From: Agrococcus sp. ProA11
Lineage (GTDB): Bacteria > Actinomycetota > Actinomycetes > Actinomycetales > Microbacteriaceae
Assembly (NCBI RefSeq): GCF_039880525.1
Contig: NZ_CP156989.1
Coordinates: 62,001-126,000 of the forward strand
Direction: 5' to 3'
Length of the DNA: 64,000 nucleotides
In this document: in pieces, positions 41,589 through 49,534 of the stretch
Position numbering within the stretch: the first letter of the stretch is position 1
How the letters are laid out: the number at the start of each line of letters is the position of its first letter
Position numbers and translations under genes: made by a program
Notes under the pieces: model-generated
Seen by the model: the letters and a program-made list of their open reading frames with translations, nothing else
Database searches by the model: none
What the model was told of the DNA's origin: nothing

Positions 41589-41672
41589 GCGCGACCGGCG
41601 CGCCCGCGCTGCCGGGGCCGGCAGGGTGGTGCAGCCATGCTGCGAACCCGGTGGCCGTGCGAACCGGGATGC

Positions 41673-41702
41673 GTGCAGAGTGCAGAGTGCACAGATCTGC
41701 AC
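41673..41702. promoter_or_regulatory. Tandem GTGCAGA repeats with inverted copy
   Basis: Three adjoining 7-bp units GTGCAGA, GTGCAGA, GTGCACA (41673-41693) are followed by the inverted form TCTGCAC (41696-41702); a further GTGCACA occurs at 41717-41723. The array lies 88-117 bp before the NCS1 permease start in the 200-bp upstream gap. It is a candidate binding site for the PucR protein encoded at the end of the same gene series. Confidence 0.6.
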
Positions 41703-41789
41703 CAAGAAGCAGCGGAGTGCACATGGCGGCCCCGAGGCTGGCTCAATACGTTGGCCGCATCTGCAGCACGCTCCGGGAAAGGGCCCCGC

Positions 41790-43151
41790 ATGGCTACCAC
41801 GGCACACGATGACTACTCACTCCAGCGCGTTCCGAAGGCGGCGCGCAGCCACTGGTTTCCGATCGCGGTGCAGCGGTTCGGGCAGGTGTCAGCGCTCTCG
41901 CAGTTTCTGCTGGGTGCGACGCTCGGCTACGCGCTGAGCTTCTGGGATGCGGCGCTCGCCTTCCTGATCGGCTCGATCATCCTCGAGATCGTGATCACGA
42001 TCGTCGGCATCATCGGGCAGAAGGAGGGCATGCAGACCTCCCTGCTGACCCGTTGGACCGGCTTCGGTGAGATCGGCTCCGCACTCGTCGGCCTCGCGAT
42101 CGCGATGAGCCTGATCGGCTGGTTCGGGATTCAGAGCGCGATCTCGGCAGAGTCCCTCGATTCGCTGATGCCCGACCTCATGCCCATCCCGGTCTGGTCG
42201 ATCCTCTTCGGGCTGCTCGTCACGGCTGTGGTCGCATTCGGCTTCAAGGGGATGCAGTGGCTCGCGAACGTCACGGTGCCGCTCTTCCTCGTGCTCGTCG
42301 GCTGGTCGGTCGTCAGTGAGCTGAGCCAGCACTCCATCGCCGACTTGATGTCGCGCGCCCCTGCTGGTGAGCCGATGTCGGTGTTCGCCGGGGCTGGCGT
42401 CGTGGCCGGCGGCTTCATCGTCGGAGCGATCATCACCAGCGACATGACGCGGTTCAACCGCACCCCTGGCGATGTGGTCAAGGTCACCGTCGTCGGGATC
42501 ACCCTCGGAGAGTTCGTCATCGGCATGGCCGGCGTGCTGCTCGCGCATGCGGCGCAGTCGGGCAACATCGTGGCCATCGTGACGTCGGCGGTCGGTTGGA
42601 TCGGGTTGCTCATCATCGTCACGGGGACGCTGAAGATCAATGACTGGAACCTGTACTCCTCCGTGCTGGGACTGGTGAACTTCGTCTCCACCAGTTTCAA
42701 CAGGGCACTCCCGCATCTGGCGACGACCCTGGTCGTCGGACTGGCCGGGACGCTGCTCGCGGCCTTCGGCATCCTCCAGGGCTTCATCCCATTCCTGACG
42801 ATCCTCGCCGCAGCATTCCCGCCGATCGCGGGCATCATGGTCGCCGAGTACTTCGTTGTGCGGAAGTTCCGACCGCAGCTCGATGAGACTCGCGACGCCG
42901 AGACGATGCCGAGGACGGCACCGCGCGTCGTGCCCGCGACGATCGCGATCTGGCTCATCGCGAGCCTGGTCGGCTACTTCTTCACGTGGGGCATCCCGTC
43001 GATCACCGCGCTGCTCGTCTCCTTCGTGCTCTACGTGGCTGCGGGCAAGCTTGGCCTCGTGCGCGGAGTCGGTGAGGTCGAGACAGAGACGATCGCATCG
43101 GACGCGCGTGCTGGCGGAACCCCCGTGGAAGCTGCGCCGCAGGAGCGCTGA
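41790..43151 (+). CDS. NCS1-type nucleobase/hydantoin permease (CodB-like)
   Basis: A 453-residue, 12-helix transporter close to cytosine/purine permeases: SQFLLGATLGYALSFWDAAL, GIIGQKEGMQTSLLTRWTGFG and IITSDMTRFNRTPGDVVKV are family motifs. NCS1 members take up cytosine, allantoin, uracil or hydantoins. ATG 41790 is preferred because upstream in-frame codons encode a Cys-rich stretch unlike this family; a weak GGGAAAGGG precedes it. It opens the hydantoinase-like/DUF917 series, so it probably imports that pathway's substrate. Confidence 0.88.
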   Translation: MATTAHDDYSLQRVPKAARSHWFPIAVQRFGQVSALSQFLLGATLGYALSFWDAALAFLIGSIILEIVITIVGIIGQKEGMQTSLLTRWTGFGEIGSALVGLAIAMSLIGWFGIQSAISAESLDSLMPDLMPIPVWSILFGLLVTAVVAFGFKGMQWLANVTVPLFLVLVGWSVVSELSQHSIADLMSRAPAGEPMSVFAGAGVVAGGFIVGAIITSDMTRFNRTPGDVVKVTVVGITLGEFVIGMAGVLLAHAAQSGNIVAIVTSAVGWIGLLIIVTGTLKINDWNLYSSVLGLVNFVSTSFNRALPHLATTLVVGLAGTLLAAFGILQGFIPFLTILAAAFPPIAGIMVAEYFVVRKFRPQLDETRDAETMPRTAPRVVPATIAIWLIASLVGYFFTWGIPSITALLVSFVLYVAAGKLGLVRGVGEVETETIASDARAGGTPVEAAPQER

Positions 43152-43155
43152 CAGG

Positions 43156-43215
43156 CGAGGGCTCGGTGGCGCCGCGCCATCGAGCCCTCGTTGGCGCTGG
43201 GGCGCGCCCCAGCGC
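43156..43215 (+). terminator. Two strong hairpins between permease and hydrolase genes
   Basis: Hairpin 1: CGAGGGCTCGGTGGC (43156-43170) pairs with GCCATCGAGCCCTCG (43176-43190), 15 bp with one G-U pair and a 5-nt loop. Hairpin 2: GCGCTGGGGCG / CGCCCCAGCGC (43194-43215), a perfect 22-bp palindrome. They start 4 bp after the permease stop and lie inside what otherwise looks like one operon, so they may act as an attenuator or mRNA-stability element rather than a plain terminator. Confidence 0.65.
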
Positions 43216-43249
43216 TCCGGCACAGACTTGGAAGAGGAAGAGGGATCGG

Positions 43250-44797
43250 ATGCATATCGGAATCGACGTCGGAGGCACGAACACCGACGCAGTGCTCATG
43301 GAGGGCACCACGGTGCTCGCGAGCGTCAAGCGCTCGACGAGCGCGGACGTCACGAGCGGCATCGTCGCTGCGATCGAGTCGCTACGCACCGATCGGCCAT
43401 TCGAGGGCTCGGACGTGACGGCGGTGATGATCGGCACGACGCACTTCATCAATGCGCTGGTGCAGGCCCGCAACCTGGCCCCGACGGCCGCGCTCCGACT
43501 CGGACTGCCCGCAACCCGCGCACTGCCTCCCCTGGTCGACTGGCCGGAGGAGCTGCGGCAGGCGATCAAGGCGCGCACCTACCTCGCGCATGGCGGCTAC
43601 GAGTTTGACGGACGGCCGATCTCGCCGCTTGACCCCGACGAGCTGCGCCGCCACGCCGCGGACATGGCTGCCCACGGCATCCGCTCGCTCGCGATCTCCA
43701 GCGTGTTCAGCCCGGTCAACCACGATCTGGAGGTGCAGGCCGCGGAGATCGTGCGCAGTGAGTTGGGTGATGGTGTCGCCATCTCGCTGAGCCACGAGAT
43801 CGGACGGATCGGCCTGCTCGAGCGCGAGAACGCCACGGTCATTAACGCGGCGCTGCGCGAGCTCGCGGTCGAGATCGTCGACGGGCTCAGCGCGGCAGTG
43901 CGGGCCCAGGGCATCACGGCGCCGATCTTCCTGAGCCAGAACGACGGCACGCTGATGGACGAGGACTTCGTGCGGCACTACCCGGTGGCGACATTCGCAT
44001 CCGGTCCGACGAACTCGATGCGCGGTGCAGCCATCACCAGTGGACTGACCGACTGCGCGGTGGTCGACGTCGGTGGTACGACGGCCGACATCGGGCTGCT
44101 CGTCAACGGCTTCCCGCGGGAGACGTCGACGGAGGTGACCGTGGCCGGGATCCGCACCAACTTCAGGATGCCCGACGTGCTCTCGCTCGGCATCGGCGGC
44201 GGCAGCCATGTGCACGAGCAGAGCCGTGAGGTCGGCCCGACCTCTGTCGGGTACCGCTTGACGACGGATGCGCTCGTCTTCGGCGGGGCGACGCTCACGG
44301 CGACGGACATCGCCGTGGCCGCGGGTCGGGCAGACATCGGCGACGCCGACCGCGTCCGACACATCGACAAGGGCTTCGCCACCGCGGTGATCGAGCGGAT
44401 CGCGGAGCGGGTCTCCGAGGCCGTCGATCGCATGCGCACGTCGTCCGCGCCGATCCCGGTCGTCGCCGTCGGCGGCGGTTCGATCCTGCTACCGGACGAG
44501 CTGCCGATCTTCGGCGCGGTGCAGCGCCCCGACAACTATGCGGTCGCCAACGCCATCGGCGCCTCCATCGCGCAGGTGGGCGGCGAGATCGACAAGGTCG
44601 TCGCCGTCGACCCCGGTCGCCGCGACACAATCCTGGACGCAGTGCGGCAGGAGGCCGTGGATAAGGCCATCGCGGCCGGCGCCGCCCCGCGCACCGTGCA
44701 GATCGTCGACTTCGACGAGGTGCCGCTCCCGTACCTTCCCGGCAACGCGACGCGCGTGCGCGCGAAGGCCGTCGGCGATCTCGACATGGGCCGATGA
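43250..44797 (+). CDS. Hydantoinase/oxoprolinase-family protein, HyuA-like (short form)
   Basis: A 515-residue ASKHA-fold protein. The N-terminal phosphate loop is GIDVGGTNTDAVLM, the second nucleotide loop is VVDVGGTTADIGLLVNGFPR, and LSLGIGGGSHVHE and VVAVGGGSILLPDEL follow. It matches the HyuA subunit of ATP-dependent hydantoinases and oxoprolinases but is shorter than full HyuA (about 690 residues), and no HyuB partner is present. Instead three DUF917 genes follow, the first overlapping by four bases. ATP-driven ring opening of a hydantoin-like substrate is the working idea (inference). Confidence 0.85.
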   Translation: MHIGIDVGGTNTDAVLMEGTTVLASVKRSTSADVTSGIVAAIESLRTDRPFEGSDVTAVMIGTTHFINALVQARNLAPTAALRLGLPATRALPPLVDWPEELRQAIKARTYLAHGGYEFDGRPISPLDPDELRRHAADMAAHGIRSLAISSVFSPVNHDLEVQAAEIVRSELGDGVAISLSHEIGRIGLLERENATVINAALRELAVEIVDGLSAAVRAQGITAPIFLSQNDGTLMDEDFVRHYPVATFASGPTNSMRGAAITSGLTDCAVVDVGGTTADIGLLVNGFPRETSTEVTVAGIRTNFRMPDVLSLGIGGGSHVHEQSREVGPTSVGYRLTTDALVFGGATLTATDIAVAAGRADIGDADRVRHIDKGFATAVIERIAERVSEAVDRMRTSSAPIPVVAVGGGSILLPDELPIFGAVQRPDNYAVANAIGASIAQVGGEIDKVVAVDPGRRDTILDAVRQEAVDKAIAAGAAPRTVQIVDFDEVPLPYLPGNATRVRAKAVGDLDMGR

Positions 44798-45876
44798 TGA
44801 GCTGGCACATCACCGCCGACAGCATTCGCGGCCTGGCGCGGGGAGCCGCCGTCCTCGGCACCGGCGGCGGGGGAGATCCGTACGTCGGCGCGCTGCTCGC
44901 CCGCCAAGCGCTCGGGGACGGGTCGGTCGAGGTCGTCCCGCTCCGCGAGCTGCGCGACGACGCACTCGTGATCACGGCCGCGATGATGGGCGCTCCGACG
45001 GTCATGGTCGAGAAGCTGCCGAGCATCGACGAGGTGCTGGCGCCGATCGAGGCGCTCGCGGCGAGCCTCGGTCGCGACGTGACGCACATCGCCTGCGCGG
45101 AGATCGGCGGCGTCAACTCCACCATCCCCGTGGCGGCGGCAGCCGCACTCGGACTGCCGCTGCTCGACGCCGACGGCATGGGACGGGCGTTCCCTGAGCT
45201 GCAGATGGTGCTTCCGACGATGTACGGCATCACCGCGTCGCCGCTCGGTCTGGCCGACGAGAAGGGGAACGTCGCCGTGCTCCAGACCGCCGACAACCAC
45301 TGGACGGAGCGCATCGCTCGGGTCGCGGCGGTCGAGATGGGCTGCTCGGTGATGATCTCGGGCTTCGCGATGAGCGGTGCGCAGGCGCGAGAGTCGCTCG
45401 TCGACGGTTCGCTCTCGCTGTGCGTCGAGCTCGGCGATCGCATCGCCGACGCGCGCGCTGCCAACGACGATCCGGTGGCGGCCGTCGTGCACCGCCTCGG
45501 TGGCCGCGAGCTCTTCGCAGGCAAGGTCATCGATGTCGCACGCGCGACGACCGCAGGCTTCGCCCGCGGCAGCGCGCACCTCAGAGGCTCTGAGGGCGAG
45601 CTCGAGCTCTCCTTCCAGAACGAGCACCTCATAGCCGAGCTCGACGGCGAGGTGCTCGTCACGACGCCCGACCTCATCATCGTCCTCGAGCACGACACGG
45701 GCGAACCGATCACGACGGAAGCGCTGCGCTACGGCCAGCGGGTGCGGGTGATCGCGGCACCCGCAGACGAGCGGTGGCACTCAGATGAGGGTCTGGCGCT
45801 GGCGGGCCCCGGCTACTTCGGGTACGACCATGCACCCACGCGATTCGACGGCACGGTGAGGAAGGCTGCGGCATGA
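44794..45876 (+). CDS. DUF917 / S-methyl-thiohydantoin desulfurase-family protein, paralogue 1
   Basis: A 360-residue member of the family once named DUF917 (PF06032). The N-terminal glycine loop is LGTGGGGDPYVG; other marks are AAMMGAPTVMVEKL, AEIGGVNSTIP, DADGMGRAFPELQM, and the C-terminal LSFQNEHLIAELDGEVLVTT and PDLIIVLEHDTGEPI. Biochemically little is known; Pfam links the domain to S-methyl thiohydantoin. ATG 44794 or 44797 may start translation, both touching the HyuA-like stop. It is followed by a second, similar gene (ATGA overlap at 45873). Confidence 0.85.
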   Translation: MMSWHITADSIRGLARGAAVLGTGGGGDPYVGALLARQALGDGSVEVVPLRELRDDALVITAAMMGAPTVMVEKLPSIDEVLAPIEALAASLGRDVTHIACAEIGGVNSTIPVAAAAALGLPLLDADGMGRAFPELQMVLPTMYGITASPLGLADEKGNVAVLQTADNHWTERIARVAAVEMGCSVMISGFAMSGAQARESLVDGSLSLCVELGDRIADARAANDDPVAAVVHRLGGRELFAGKVIDVARATTAGFARGSAHLRGSEGELELSFQNEHLIAELDGEVLVTTPDLIIVLEHDTGEPITTEALRYGQRVRVIAAPADERWHSDEGLALAGPGYFGYDHAPTRFDGTVRKAAA

Positions 45877-46982
45877 GCTTCGAGCTTCGCGCGAGCGATC
45901 TGAGCGACCTTGCGAGAGGCGCGACGCTGCTGGGGACCGGTGGCGGGGGCGATCCCTACATCGGCCGCCGGCTCGTCGAGCGCGTGCTCGGCGACGGTGC
46001 GATCACGATCCTCGACCCCGACGAGATCGCTGACGACTTATTCGTCATCCCCACCGCGCAGATGGGTGCGCCCACCGTGATGATCGAGAAGATCCCGGCA
46101 GGCACGGAGCCGAGCCTCTCGCTGCGCATCCTCGAGGAGCACCTTGGCCGGAGGGCGGATGCGACGATGCCGATCGAGTGCGGTGGCATCAACTCGATGA
46201 TCCCCCTCGTCGTGGCAGCGGAGACGGGGCTGCCGGTCGTCGATGCCGATGGAATGGGGCGGGCGTTCCCCGAGCTGTCGATGGAGACCTTCGCCGTCTA
46301 CGGCGTGCACGGGTCTCCGCTCGCGCTCGCCGGCGAGCGCGGCGAGCGCATCATCATCGACACCGGCGACGACGACCGGCAGATGGAGTGGCTCGCGCGC
46401 GCAATCACGATCCGGCTGGGCGGCGTGGGGCACATCGCCGAATACGCGATGTCGGGCGCAGATGTGCGACGCACGGCAATCCCACGCACGCTCTCGATGG
46501 CGCTCTCGCTCGGTCGCGCGATCCGAGAGGCGCGAGAGGACAATCGGTCGCCGTTCGACGCCATCGCAGACGCGCTCGCGAGCACGCTCTACAGCCACGT
46601 CCGAGAGCTGTTCCACGGCAAGGTGGCTGACGTCGAGCGCAGGACGACCGACGGCTTCGCGAAGGGTCGAGCTCGCATCGCCGGCCTCGGAGGCGAGGGC
46701 GACGATCTCGAGATCCGATTCCAGAACGAGAACCTGATCGCCACGCGCGGCGGGGAGACCGTCGCGATCGTGCCCGACCTGATCTGCGTGCTGGACGCGG
46801 ACACGGCGGAGCCGATCACCACCGAGGGGCTGCGCTACGGGCAGCGAGTGCGCGTGCTGGGCATCTCGACACCCGAGATGATGCGCACGCCGGAAGCGCT
46901 CGCGGCGTTCGGGCCGTCCGCGTTCGGGCTCGCGGAGCGCTTTGTGCCGGTCGAGACGAGGGCAGGAGCGGTGCAGATCTAG
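45873..46982 (+). CDS. DUF917-family protein, paralogue 2
   Basis: A 369-residue paralogue of the preceding protein with the same motif series: LGTGGGGDPYIG, AQMGAPTVMIEKIP, ECGGINSMIP, DADGMGRAFPELSM and IRFQNENLIATRGGETVAIV. All conserved Gly/Asp positions are kept, so it is probably active, perhaps as a heteromer with paralogue 1. It ends with TAG 46980-46982, which also forms part of the TAGGCT hexamer before paralogue 3. Confidence 0.85.
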   Translation: MSFELRASDLSDLARGATLLGTGGGGDPYIGRRLVERVLGDGAITILDPDEIADDLFVIPTAQMGAPTVMIEKIPAGTEPSLSLRILEEHLGRRADATMPIECGGINSMIPLVVAAETGLPVVDADGMGRAFPELSMETFAVYGVHGSPLALAGERGERIIIDTGDDDRQMEWLARAITIRLGGVGHIAEYAMSGADVRRTAIPRTLSMALSLGRAIREAREDNRSPFDAIADALASTLYSHVRELFHGKVADVERRTTDGFAKGRARIAGLGGEGDDLEIRFQNENLIATRGGETVAIVPDLICVLDADTAEPITTEGLRYGQRVRVLGISTPEMMRTPEALAAFGPSAFGLAERFVPVETRAGAVQI

Positions 46983-46985
46983 GCT
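46980..46985 (+). promoter_or_regulatory. -10 element TAGGCT before the third DUF917 gene
   Basis: TAGGCT uses the stop codon TAG of paralogue 2 and ends 6 nt before ATG 46992. It fits the leaderless promoter pattern, so paralogue 3 and the PucR gene may be transcribed separately. Confidence 0.4.
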
Positions 46986-46991
46986 GAACCC

Positions 46992-48029
46992 ATGCCCTGG
47001 ACTCTCGAGCGTGCCGATCTGGCCGCGCTGGGTCGCGGCGCATCACTGCTTGGCGGCGGCGGCGGTGGGAATCCGCGGCTGATGGCCCTGAGCGCGGGCG
47101 AGTCCGCCGACTGGCCCGTACAGGTGCACCAGGTCGCCGAGCTCGACCCGGCGACGCCCTGCGTCGCGGTCGGCCTGGGCGGCTCCACGACCGTCTTCGG
47201 CGAACGCCTGCCACACCCGGATCTCTTCGCGGAGGCGATCGCGACCATCGACCGTTGGACAGGGGCGCCTGCCGAAGCGGTGTGCATGACGGAGATCGGT
47301 GGAATGAACGCGCTCTCGGCCCTGCCCCTCGCGCATGAGCTGCGACTGGTCGACGCGGATCTTATGGGCACAGCGCTGCCCGAGCTCGACCAGTTCACGC
47401 TGCTCGCCGACGACGTGCCGGATCTCGTCGTGGCGATCTCGGCGTGGACGCGTGGCACGGTGTTGATGACCGACGCGCGCCCGAAGGATGTCGAGCAAGT
47501 CCTGCGCGCCGCGTTCCAGGCTGCGGGAGGGTGGGCCGGCACCGTGATCGGCGGCTTCCGCGTCGGTGATCTGGCGCAGCACGCGATCGCCGGCGGGCTC
47601 GCACGCGCCCTCGAGCTCGGAGGCGCTTGGGGCGCCGCCCCGATGTCGATCGGCTCACGGATTGCGGCGATCGGCGCGGAGCGGCTGGGGGTCGGGCGCG
47701 TGACCGCGATCGAGCACGATCGGTCCGATGTGCGCATCCGCACCGTCGACATCGCCGGCAGTGATGGCGCGCTCGTTCGCGTCATCACCCGGGACGACGC
47801 GCTTGCCTGCATGGTCGACGGTCGCGTCGCCGCGCGCGCACCGCAGATCATCGATGTCGTCGACCCGCAGTCGGGCGCGGTGCTGCAGGTCGAAGACATC
47901 GCCGTGGGCAAGAGCGTCGCTGTGCTCGTTCTCGACGCGCCGGCGTGGTGGACGGCGAGCCCGGAGCGGCTCGCGATGGTGCTGCCGTCCCGTTATGGCC
48001 TCGAGGGGCTCGACCAGGTCGACCGATGA
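46992..48029 (+). CDS. DUF917-family protein, divergent paralogue 3
   Basis: A 345-residue, clearly related but diverged third copy. The glycine loop is LGGGGGGNPR instead of LGTGGGGDPY, and DADGMGRAFPEL has become DADLMGTALPEL, losing the Gly and Arg that both other copies share. MTEIGGMNALSALPLA and QIIDVVDPQSGAVLQ remain recognisable. It may be a regulatory or structural subunit, or have a different substrate. It overlaps the PucR gene by four bases (48026-48029). Confidence 0.8.
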   Translation: MPWTLERADLAALGRGASLLGGGGGGNPRLMALSAGESADWPVQVHQVAELDPATPCVAVGLGGSTTVFGERLPHPDLFAEAIATIDRWTGAPAEAVCMTEIGGMNALSALPLAHELRLVDADLMGTALPELDQFTLLADDVPDLVVAISAWTRGTVLMTDARPKDVEQVLRAAFQAAGGWAGTVIGGFRVGDLAQHAIAGGLARALELGGAWGAAPMSIGSRIAAIGAERLGVGRVTAIEHDRSDVRIRTVDIAGSDGALVRVITRDDALACMVDGRVAARAPQIIDVVDPQSGAVLQVEDIAVGKSVAVLVLDAPAWWTASPERLAMVLPSRYGLEGLDQVDR

Positions 48030-49534
48030 GCGGACTCAGCCTCGACGAGCTTCTGGAGCAGCCGACGCGCGCGACGATCGAGGTCGTCGTGCGCGCGAGC
48101 GATTCGTGGGATCGCGTCGAGGTCGAACCCGACGAGGCGTCGCTCGGGCGCGTTGCATCGCCCTCGCTCGCCGTCCTCGTCACCAATCGCACCACCACCG
48201 CGTGGCAATTGGATGCGATGCTGCGCAGAGTCCGCGATCTCGGATACACCGGCATCGCGCTCCCGGATCATGTGATGCTCTCCGTCGGAACGGCGGCGCT
48301 CGCGCGCCGCATCGGTCTCACTGTGCTGCAGACGGATCGCCCGGTCGTCCTGGCCCGAACGTGCTGGGAGCTCGCGACGAGCAGCGAGGCGCTCAAGCTC
48401 ACACTCGTGCGCAAGGTCGCGCAGACCATCCAGTACTCCGCGCGCGATCTGCCTGATCAGCTGCGCCACCTCGCATCCGGCATCGGCCACGGGGTGGCGC
48501 TCGTCGGCCCGCACGGCGTGCTCCAGCAGGCTGGGCCGGCGCTCGATCCCGAGCTGCTCGAGCGCATCGCGTTCGACTCCTGGGTCGACCGCCTCCAGGA
48601 TCGACGAGGCAGCGTCGCCTCGGTGCGGGTCGACAGCAAGGGTGCCGATCGATTGCGCCTTGTGTTCCATGGCACCTCGCTCAGCCTCGCTCAGCTCTCT
48701 GCGCTCGCCGCCGCCGCCGAGATCGCGATGCCAGCGGTCGCGGCACGCATGCTGATCGATGAAGTCGCCGAGATGAACGACGCGTCGCGCTCGTCGTCGT
48801 TGCTGAGTGAGCTACTCGACCCCTTCACCGCGCACGACTCGGAGCTCGACCGCAGGGTTGCTGAACGCGGGTGGCGTCCCGAGGGATGGCACGTCGGCTT
48901 CAGCGCGCAACCTCGGGGCAGGGTCGAGCCGCTCGAGTTGCTGCGCCTGCTCCAACCAGCCCTCAGCACGCTGCCGGTCGCCGCGTACTTGACGATCCGC
49001 GGCCCAGGGGTAGCCGGATGGATCAGCTTCCCCCACGCCCCGACGCGCCCTGAGCTCGAGCGCGCCGTCGCCGCCCTGCAGCAGCTCCACGAGTCGGCGC
49101 TCCGTCAACTACCGATCGCGACCGGCGTCGGCACCCTGCAGCGGGGCGTGCAGGGGTTCGCGCAGACCATCCAAGAGTCCATCGACGCTGCCCGACTCGC
49201 TGCGGACCGGTCAGCTGCGCGATGGTTCCTGCACGTCGATCGGCTGGGCGTCGAGCAACTGCTGCTGGCATGGACTGGCAGCGACGCGTTCCTGCCCGCG
49301 GCTCGCGACCTGCTCGAGCCGTTGCGCGACGTTGATCGGGAGACGCTCGCGGCGTACCTGGACCACGAGTCCTCGCTTGCAGCGACGGCGGGTGCGCTCG
49401 GCATCCACCGCAATACGGTCGCGCAGCGCGTCGCGCGCGCCGAGTCGCTGCTCGGCATGGACCTCGGCGACGTGGAGGCCAGGCTGGCCCTGCGGCTTGC
49501 GATCAGAGCGACCGGGGCCGCTCGGGAGGCCTAG
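48026..49534 (+). CDS. PucR-family transcriptional regulator
   Basis: A 502-residue regulator. The N-terminal PucR-type domain (about 1-115) includes LAVLVTNRTTTAWQLDAMLR and GYTGIALPDHVML; the C-terminal helix-turn-helix is LAAYLDHESSLAATAGALGI followed by HRNTVAQRVARAESLLG, the PucR/CdaR (HTH_30) signature. PucR of Bacillus controls purine and allantoin use; the same kind of control over this operon is inferred from the ATGA overlap with the last DUF917 gene. Its site may be the GTGCAGA array at 41673-41702. Confidence 0.88.
   Translation: MSGLSLDELLEQPTRATIEVVVRASDSWDRVEVEPDEASLGRVASPSLAVLVTNRTTTAWQLDAMLRRVRDLGYTGIALPDHVMLSVGTAALARRIGLTVLQTDRPVVLARTCWELATSSEALKLTLVRKVAQTIQYSARDLPDQLRHLASGIGHGVALVGPHGVLQQAGPALDPELLERIAFDSWVDRLQDRRGSVASVRVDSKGADRLRLVFHGTSLSLAQLSALAAAAEIAMPAVAARMLIDEVAEMNDASRSSSLLSELLDPFTAHDSELDRRVAERGWRPEGWHVGFSAQPRGRVEPLELLRLLQPALSTLPVAAYLTIRGPGVAGWISFPHAPTRPELERAVAALQQLHESALRQLPIATGVGTLQRGVQGFAQTIQESIDAARLAADRSAARWFLHVDRLGVEQLLLAWTGSDAFLPAARDLLEPLRDVDRETLAAYLDHESSLAATAGALGIHRNTVAQRVARAESLLGMDLGDVEARLALRLAIRATGAAREA

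Follow-up and report, generated by a model that had tools for sequence, protein, structure and literature searches.

ATP-dependent hydantoinases, 5-oxoprolinases and caprolactamases open cyclic amides with a HyuA and a HyuB component, and in 5-oxoprolinase phosphorylation is carried out by subunit A and hydrolysis requires subunit B (PMC6061476). Proteins of the DUF917 type have been met in other settings. S-methyl thiohydantoin desulfurase (NF058532) and thiohydantoin desulfurase (NF058529) belong to the same superfamily, and the same fold is found in CV_3147, a hypothetical protein (PDB 2o3i). DUF917 genes are also described, together with racemase, AroM and transporter genes, from cyclodipeptide-oxidase clusters (PMC11055893), and in Clostridioides difficile a permease, a DUF917 protein and a hydantoinase carry the consecutive locus tags CDR20291_1615-1617, with one DUF917 gene as listed in PMC12915319 compared with three at the locus described here.

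The window, a stretch of 64,000 nucleotides from the genome of Agrococcus sp. ProA11 (one contig, 99.99% complete), carries on its forward strand an NCS1-family permease, a short HyuA-like protein, three DUF917 paralogues (D1, D2 and D3) and a PucR-type regulator, and profile matches confirmed all six as one block, as an earlier note on this DNA had described. That note began the block at position 41673, which is no gene boundary, as the permease (453 aa, 41790-43151) starts with an ATG at 41790 or, in the longest frame, at 41637. The genes had also been described as coupled by four-base overlaps; this was found at three of the five junctions (HyuA to D1, D1 to D2 and D3 to PucR), while the permease and HyuA genes are separated by 98 bases and D2 and D3 by 9 bases. 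The first of these gaps contains two strong hairpins at 43156-43215 (arms of 17 nt and 11 nt, fold z-score -5.0, no strand assigned). A pattern search for promoters and terminators gave no matches, a result which is uninformative for a GC-rich actinobacterium. Across four pairs the dN/dS values of the six genes were 0.07-0.43.

The short HyuA-like protein (515 aa, 43250-44797) matched PF05378 with 128 bits and PF01968 with 102.5 bits, and it aligned with N-methylhydantoinase and 5-oxoprolinase chains in PDB structures. At least 95% of the 105 short HyuA sequences compared, which are 507-534 residues long, keep each of the columns DVGGTNTD, DxGGT and GGG, which we take to be the ATP-site motifs of the HyuA fold. 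The ATPase half with its conserved motifs is thus shared with the HyuA and HyuB systems, in which HyuA has a length of about 690-760 aa, as judged from long open frames. The short form is without the C-terminal part of the long protein, as PF01968 was matched only up to position 208 of the 291 profile positions and the PDB alignments stopped near residue 395. From these comparisons the short HyuA is a probable ATP-dependent activating subunit, and the ATP-driven opening of a cyclic amide is a probable common feature with the known systems.

A profile search of the genome found no HyuB (PF02538), and no other PF01968 gene was found in a search of the same scope; the earlier note had named a hyuB gene elsewhere with the same regulation as a finding that would refute its reading. 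HyuB did occur in 21 of 33 DUF917 genomes and, where it adjoined a HyuA, that HyuA was long when read by eye. The short HyuA of G037, G097, G146, G164 and G133 had such a pair of long HyuA and HyuB some 8-10 kb away. A class sample of 246 genomes, with six first-look candidates scored in each, gave a short HyuA of at least 500 bits in 24 genomes, all within the 28 that contain DUF917, and in none of the other 218. Nor do the DUF917 genes occur mostly apart from HyuA, the second finding that the note had named as refuting, since 30 of the 32 class-sample loci had a HyuA on the same strand no more than 200 bases away; in G114 and G228, DUF917 was seen without a visible adjacent HyuA. The regular pairing of short HyuA with DUF917, and of HyuB with the longer HyuA, supports the proposal that DUF917 proteins stand here in place of HyuB. 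The earlier note overlooked that a short HyuA is as a rule paired in this way, without HyuB, as annotated genomes already show, so that the window is no special case. No fusion of HyuA with DUF917 was seen among the open reading frames of the 119 stretches that were classified. No functional study of the pair turned up among the open-access papers searched, which does not prove that none exists.

All three DUF917 paralogues, D1 (360 aa, 44794-45876), D2 (369 aa, 45873-46982) and D3 (345 aa, 46992-48029), matched PF06032 and PF20906 above the cut-offs, and a profile search revealed no further PF06032 gene in the genome. D1 is 47% identical to D2 and 27% identical to D3. Each of the three clusters with its counterpart from other genomes, and for this reason a recent tandem duplication was rejected as the origin of the three copies. 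D1 and D2 are old paralogues by their sequences, as they form separate tree groups which both reach archaea (support 93/94 and 100/98, the value for D1 falling just short of the usual mark) and also span Bacillota and Chloroflexota, although gene transfer rather than age could be the cause of this broad spread. Nearly all family-conserved residues are retained in D1 sequences, and D2 has the slowest evolution of the three as judged from distances. Among the positions conserved in D1 and D2 are D124, D126, R130, E172, R176 and E286 (D2 numbering). Their genes overlap by four bases in 48 of 51 stretches, and together with the old separation of the paralogues this makes a hetero-oligomer of DUF917 proteins, which the earlier note had suggested, plausible.

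D3 is different in kind from D1 and D2, a point missed by the earlier note. It is fast-evolving and has kept the fold and the core of the N-domain, whereas family residues of the C-domain have been lost (for example G261, G265, Q284, R325 and G347 in D2 numbering). Since D3 formed no single clean group in the larger tree, where deep forks were weak and branches long, any root for it is tentative. Decay of D3 into a pseudogene was rejected for the sequences taken together, in view of dN/dS values of 0.17-0.43 in the four pairs computed and a well-modelled fold (pLDDT 94.5, compared with 94.8 for the D2 model). Two loci, L077 (Kribbella antiqua) and L097, have D3 in fragments, and there HyuA and D1 are fragmented too.

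The 2o3i structure was matched by the D1 and D3 sequences and by the D2 and D3 models, and for the two models it was the only significant PDB match (by Foldseek for D2). The fold is the same (TM of 0.79-0.81 for D2 and 0.81 for D3, on query length) although identity is low, at 26% and 21% respectively. No HyuB-bearing chain was present among the 50 structure matches listed for the D2 model. Because 2o3i, the sole significant relative in the PDB, has no assigned function, catalysis by DUF917 is deduced only from the name of its distant relatives, S-methyl thiohydantoin desulfurase, and DUF917 could have another function.

We consider it reasonably probable that the block serves for the uptake and opening of a cyclic amide and encodes an ATP-dependent hydrolase for it, with HyuA as the phosphorylating component and D1/D2 as the hydrolysing one. 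In the division of labour that we infer, the permease would bring in the ring compound and the short HyuA would phosphorylate the carbonyl oxygen of the ring, in its lactim form, at the expense of ATP, in the manner of 5-oxoprolinase subunit A. A D1/D2 heteromer would then direct water onto the activated carbon with release of phosphate and opening of the ring, the task performed by HyuB in ordinary ATP-dependent hydantoinases. D3, an altered DUF917 protein, may join them as a third subunit that is structural or regulatory, and the operon would be controlled by PucR. The permease is the likely substrate importer; it exceeded the cut-off of PF02133 (78.8 bits against 23.5, 4.8e-22), and against the nearest NCBIfam model, cytosine permease NF008241, it scored 179 bits where 326 are required. 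The regulator (502 aa, 48026-49534) carries a C-terminal HTH_30 domain (PF13556, 72.2 bits) and PF17853, and its N-terminal region gave no match at E 0.001 to PF07905, the N-terminal domain of the PucR family.

The position of D3 beside PucR could be read differently, with HyuA, D1 and D2 as the enzyme and D3 as a retired DUF917 enzyme which binds substrate and signals to PucR, the two forming a sensor pair. In 55 of 59 D3 stretches a PucR gene follows D3 at a distance of no more than 700 bases; of the remaining four, two stop at a contig edge, one (L102) has PucR 795 bases away and one (L131) has none visible. A four-base overlap joins D3 to PucR in 36 of 49 cassettes, compared with an overlap of D2 and D3 in only 3 of 51, and D3 lies near PucR even where it is on the strand opposite to HyuA and D1/D2 (L046, L048 and L102). 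The loss of C-domain residues from D3 also fits a retired enzyme. However, in pairwise distances across 46 loci the partial correlation of D3 was -0.11 with PucR and 0.32 with both HyuA and D1, the regulator itself already contains a large N-terminal region, and the adjacency may be no more than an operon order inherited by descent. A sensor pair is on this evidence rather unlikely.

The permease, HyuA, D1, D2 and D3 occurred together in 51 stretches, representing 50 distinct loci (L070 repeats L026), and 48 of these stretches (47 distinct loci) showed the exact order NCS1-HyuA-D1-D2-D3-PucR. Conservation of the cassette is more than chance. The count of 50 is not a frequency, because the 80 named loci were chosen by their likeness to D2, and among the 28 DUF917 genomes of the evenly drawn class sample just three had D1, D2 and D3. 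Many actinobacteria share the gene order, and Leifsonia and Microbacterium are among the genera with the cassette.

Judged from the neighbours of related loci, the substrate is most likely a cyclic dipeptide or a hydantoin, which are favoured by the cyclodipeptide-oxidase-type genes found at such loci, one full cassette included. In the 119 stretches of related loci we observed dipeptide-type ABC importers at 17 loci, the Asp/Glu/hydantoin racemase family at 15 and the nitroreductase family at six, five of which had a PF19585 domain beside or fused to the nitroreductase-family gene; PF19585 is the cyclodipeptide-oxidase subunit B family as used in PMC11055893. The two are adjacent genes in L127 and L129 and one protein in L098 and L103. 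The full cassette is L032 (HyuA-D1-D2-D3-PucR), where racemase-family, nitroreductase-family, PF19585 and NCS1 permease genes are divergent, a likeness to the clusters of PMC11055893, in which DUF917 is enriched when they are of the non-CDPS type. The block in the window differs from the clusters as described there in having three DUF917 genes, an NCS1 importer and PucR, and in being without the oxidase pair, as a profile search of its six genes found no PF19585 domain.

If the ring is that of a cyclic dipeptide (2,5-diketopiperazine), a quite possible though tentative assignment, the product would be a dipeptide and no further dedicated enzyme would be needed. This would agree with the flanking and inserted proteins of cassette loci, among which no conserved downstream enzyme naming the substrate was seen; the commonest family was SDR (8 of 119 proteins), and no other was found in more than four. 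The ABC importers point the same way, as do a membrane dipeptidase two genes past HyuA in Paenarthrobacter and, in L038, an OPT transporter with AroM. Diketopiperazine cleavage is described for Leifsonia and Microbacterium isolates (PMC3852281), a link at the level of the genus. Against this, the oxidase-type pair is known from a single cassette locus, L032, the one related cassette locus that the profile search covered, and most oxidase clusters of this kind are without an assigned substrate in PMC11055893.

Its authors suggest hydantoin- or allantoin-like substrates for the non-CDPS clusters, and a hydantoin or dihydropyrimidine pathway, which we regard as somewhat unlikely, would yield an N-carbamoyl amino acid to be cut by a carbamoylase encoded elsewhere in the genome. 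The racemase-family genes near 15 related loci and two PF01177 genes in this genome are consistent with such a pathway. Hydantoin importers occur among NCS1 permeases. One gene outside the window matched the hydantoinase/carbamoylase family TIGR01879 (268.7 bits, cut-off 204) and two more matched below the cut-off, but TIGR01879 covers allantoate enzymes too. Carbamoylase families were absent from the 25 commonest of the 158 families among the 119 flanking or inserted proteins of cassette loci.

The earlier note had proposed a hydantoin- or thiohydantoin-like substrate, and the hydantoin-like ring is still possible while the thiohydantoin part was not supported. S-methyl thiohydantoin and thiohydantoin desulfurase are the nearest named families of D1, D2 and D3, but the scores (NF058532, cut-off 450: 136.5, 93.9 and 39.5 bits; NF058529, cut-off 440: 94.3, 76.3 and 36.5 bits) reach at most about 30% of the cut-offs. 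The block differs from the named enzymes in having three DUF917 copies beside a HyuA, and thiohydantoin desulfurases are not known to need a HyuA. The single urocanase-family gene of the genome is far from the block, and an ordinary histidine-pathway gene would look alike. An ergothioneine or thiohydantoin desulfurase pathway is very improbable.

In the widest form of the proposal, the short HyuA with a D1/D2 heteromer would form a distinct architecture of ATP-dependent cyclic-amide hydrolase, found across archaea and bacteria, whose hydrolytic half-reaction has passed from HyuB to a fold unrelated to it, with a catalytically retired D3 added in Actinomycetota that ties the enzyme to PucR, and with cyclic dipeptides or their oxidised forms as substrates; taken as a whole we think this improbable. 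In size the cassette is modest, and it makes up a self-contained operon. If the proposal is true, the common pair of 'hydantoinase/oxoprolinase family protein' and 'DUF917' in bacteria and archaea would gain a defined chemistry, DUF917 would provide a second means, besides HyuB, of carrying out the hydrolytic half of ring opening driven by ATP, and the cassette would help to explain the breakdown of diketopiperazines and hydantoins.

The block lies in a single-contig genome of 2.67 Mb and comprises an NCS1 permease gene (41790-43151), a short HyuA-like gene (43250-44797), three DUF917 paralogues termed D1 (44794-45876), D2 (45873-46982) and D3 (46992-48029), and a PucR-type regulator gene (48026-49534). 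The four-base overlaps which the earlier note had described along the whole series were found at HyuA/D1, D1/D2 and D3/PucR, but not at D2/D3 (9-base gap) or permease/HyuA (98-base gap). This latter gap, the length of which varies among other cassettes, is largely filled by two adjacent strong hairpins (43156-43215, arms of 17 and 11 nt) with an RNA fold z-score of -5.0. Whole-genome searches revealed no PF06032 (DUF917) gene besides D1-D3, no second PF01968 gene besides the short HyuA and no HyuB, extending the absence of HyuB noted for the block to the entire genome. PF06032 was present in 6 of 24 genomes of the genus; four of the six, counting the window's own, carried D1, D2, D3 and HyuA (divided between two contigs in genome G017), a single DUF917 gene with HyuA was found in two, and G022 also contained a single-copy pair.

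In a class sample of 246 evenly drawn genomes PF06032 was found in 28 genomes at 41 places. A short-HyuA profile, with which six first-look candidates per genome were scored, exceeded 500 bits at 28 places in 24 genomes, all with DUF917, and at none of the candidates from the 218 genomes without DUF917. Five weaker matches (175-192 bits, at E 1e-50) were either on contigs carrying DUF917 (G035, G054 and a fragment in G067) or were long HyuA proteins (G142, G198). That DUF917 is mostly paired with HyuA was borne out in 32 class stretches (the window and 31 that take in the sites of DUF917 in the 27 remaining genomes), 30 of which had HyuA on the same strand within 198 bases, the exceptions being in G114 and G228. 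HyuB was seen in one of these 32 stretches, 8.8 kb away, and in 21 of 33 DUF917 genomes when whole-genome tables were used. As read by eye from the tables, PF01968 scores were about 207-380 bits for HyuA near HyuB (two fragments lower) and about 80-117 bits near DUF917 (approximately 23 in G035 and G054); in five genomes (G037, G097, G146, G164, G133) a long-HyuA/HyuB pair was located about 8-10 kb from the short HyuA. Based on the class-sample pairing and the difference in PF01968 score, two types of HyuA exist, a long form with HyuB and a short form with DUF917, and the HyuB-less arrangement is not unusual.

Profile sorting covered the window, 38 other stretches and the best 80 loci by likeness to D2 from a genome scan, counts from which are not frequencies because of this choice. 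NCS1, HyuA, D1, D2 and D3 occurred together in 51 stretches, representing 50 distinct loci (L070 repeats L026). The order NCS1-HyuA-D1-D2-D3-PucR on one strand was observed in 48 of the 51; two lacked PucR, both being cut at a contig edge, and in L032 the permease was on the opposite strand. Judged from the titles of their records, the named carriers are Actinomycetota, among them Microbacterium, Leifsonia, Curtobacterium, Kribbella, Amycolatopsis, Saccharopolyspora, Planotetraspora, Brevibacterium, Enemella and Microlunatus. Four-base overlaps were present at D1/D2 in 48/51 stretches, HyuA/D1 in 33/51, D3/PucR in 36/49 and D2/D3 in 3/51. Other layouts were HyuA-D2, HyuA-D2-D3, HyuA-D2-D2' in alphaproteobacteria and D1-HyuA-D2-D2 in Haloferax; D1, D2 and D3 occurred together in 3 of the 28 DUF917 genomes of the even class sample. 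A gene of one SDR-type family sits between D2 and D3 in L076, L079, L081 and L122 and at the corresponding position in L085, L095 and L116. At least two HyuA-type genes, accompanied by DUF917 genes and by a permease of the NCS1 or cytosine type, were present in stretches from Aneurinibacillus (L124) and a Parageobacillus plasmid (L143).

The three window paralogues fell into separate groups when a tree was built from 53 DUF917 proteins (supports 99/96, 97/92 and 95/90 for D1, D2 and D3). With 103 proteins the D2 group contained 57 rows (100/98) and the D1 group 20 rows (93/94, slightly below the usual mark), both including archaeal, Bacillota and Chloroflexota rows, a wide spread that either an old duplication or gene transfer could explain. 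The D3 rows have long branches and split off at deep forks, some of them poorly supported, so that any origin assigned to D3 would be tentative. Family columns were defined by conservation of 92% or more across 139 sequences (D2 and other) and are given in D2 numbering; nearly all of them were kept in 51 D1 sequences, columns 88 and 191 being the main exceptions. Among 58 D3 sequences the GGGG stretch, E72, D124, D126, E172 and R176 were mostly kept, E286 was kept in 57 (D in the window's D3), M137 was replaced by Q in 57, and G261, G265, Q284, N285, T317, R325 and G347 were variable. R130 was found in 57 of the 58 and in every D1, D2 and other DUF917 examined; residue 127 of the window's D3 (47370-47372), where it is expected, is T. 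D3 is fast-evolving yet under purifying selection, with dN/dS of 0.27, 0.24, 0.17 and 0.43 for four pairs. In L077 (Kribbella antiqua) D3 is in two pieces and may be broken or mis-sequenced. Predicted structures of D2 and D3 were confident (pLDDT 94.8 and 94.5), and each model gave a single significant match in the PDB, 2o3i, a protein without assigned function.

In 55 of 59 D3 stretches a PucR gene followed D3 at a distance of no more than 700 bases; of the remainder, two ended at a contig edge, PucR was 795 bases off in L102 and none was visible in L131. This, and the retention of D3 with PucR on the strand opposite to HyuA and D1 or D2 in L046, L048 and L102, suggests that the two form a sensor pair. 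However, in partial correlations of distances across 46 loci the D3-PucR value was -0.11, while D3 gave 0.32 with HyuA, 0.32 with D1 and 0.21 with D2, the highest value overall being HyuA-D1 (0.48). Since these correlations leave some shared ancestry in, both readings are kept, and we lean towards D3 as a putative third subunit.

Residues 1-395 of the short HyuA aligned with N-methylhydantoinase and 5-oxoprolinase. Across 105 short HyuA proteins of 507-534 residues, selected for their score, conservation extended to the columns DVGGTNTD, DxGGT and GGG, which we take to be ATP-site motifs, and to QNDGT and TNFRMPD. In 5-oxoprolinase, phosphorylation is carried out by subunit A, and hydrolysis requires subunit B (PMC6061476). 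DUF917, because it occupies the place of HyuB, would perform the hydrolytic half-reaction. Distant DUF917 relatives carry the name S-methyl thiohydantoin desulfurase, and, by chemical analogy, attack of water at a ring carbon bearing a leaving group would resemble the step proposed here, in which phosphate would leave. The HyuA-DUF917 pair is already visible in public genome annotation and, according to PMC12915319, occurs in C. difficile; a search of the open-access literature found no functional study of it. We think that the cassette works like an ATP-dependent hydantoinase, but it falls outside the HyuA/HyuB system by two tested features.

No recurrent substrate-naming enzyme was evident among the 25 commonest of 158 families in the cassette flanks (119 proteins, 31 stretches). 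Among all 119 classified stretches, dipeptide-type ABC importers adjoined 17 and the Asp/Glu/hydantoin racemase family 15, these family labels resting on a few members each, and the nitroreductase family adjoined six, all six proteins being PF00881. PF19585 was looked for at five of these six (all but L120). Beside HyuA/DUF917, PF00881 and PF19585 genes occurred together in L032 (11412-14386), adjoined one another in L127 (7060-7961) and L129 (7112-7914), and were fused in a single protein in the Chloroflexi stretches L098 (2230-3006) and L103 (9088-9990). L032 has a complete HyuA-D1-D2-D3-PucR series, and its opposite-strand genes are racemase-family, PF00881, PF19585 and NCS1 permease. In PMC11055893, cyclodipeptide oxidases are defined by these two families, with fused forms reported, and DUF917 is described as enriched in non-CDPS cyclodipeptide-oxidase clusters and as not experimentally characterised, hydantoin- or allantoin-like substrates being suggested. 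In Paenarthrobacter sp. YJN-5 four consecutive genes encode DUF917, HyuA, an NTF2-like protein and a membrane dipeptidase. Cleavage of diketopiperazines by Leifsonia and Microbacterium isolates is described in PMC3852281. The window's genome also contains a hydantoinase/carbamoylase-family gene away from the block. On these observations, cyclic dipeptides would be the leading candidate substrates of the cassette, with hydantoins close behind.
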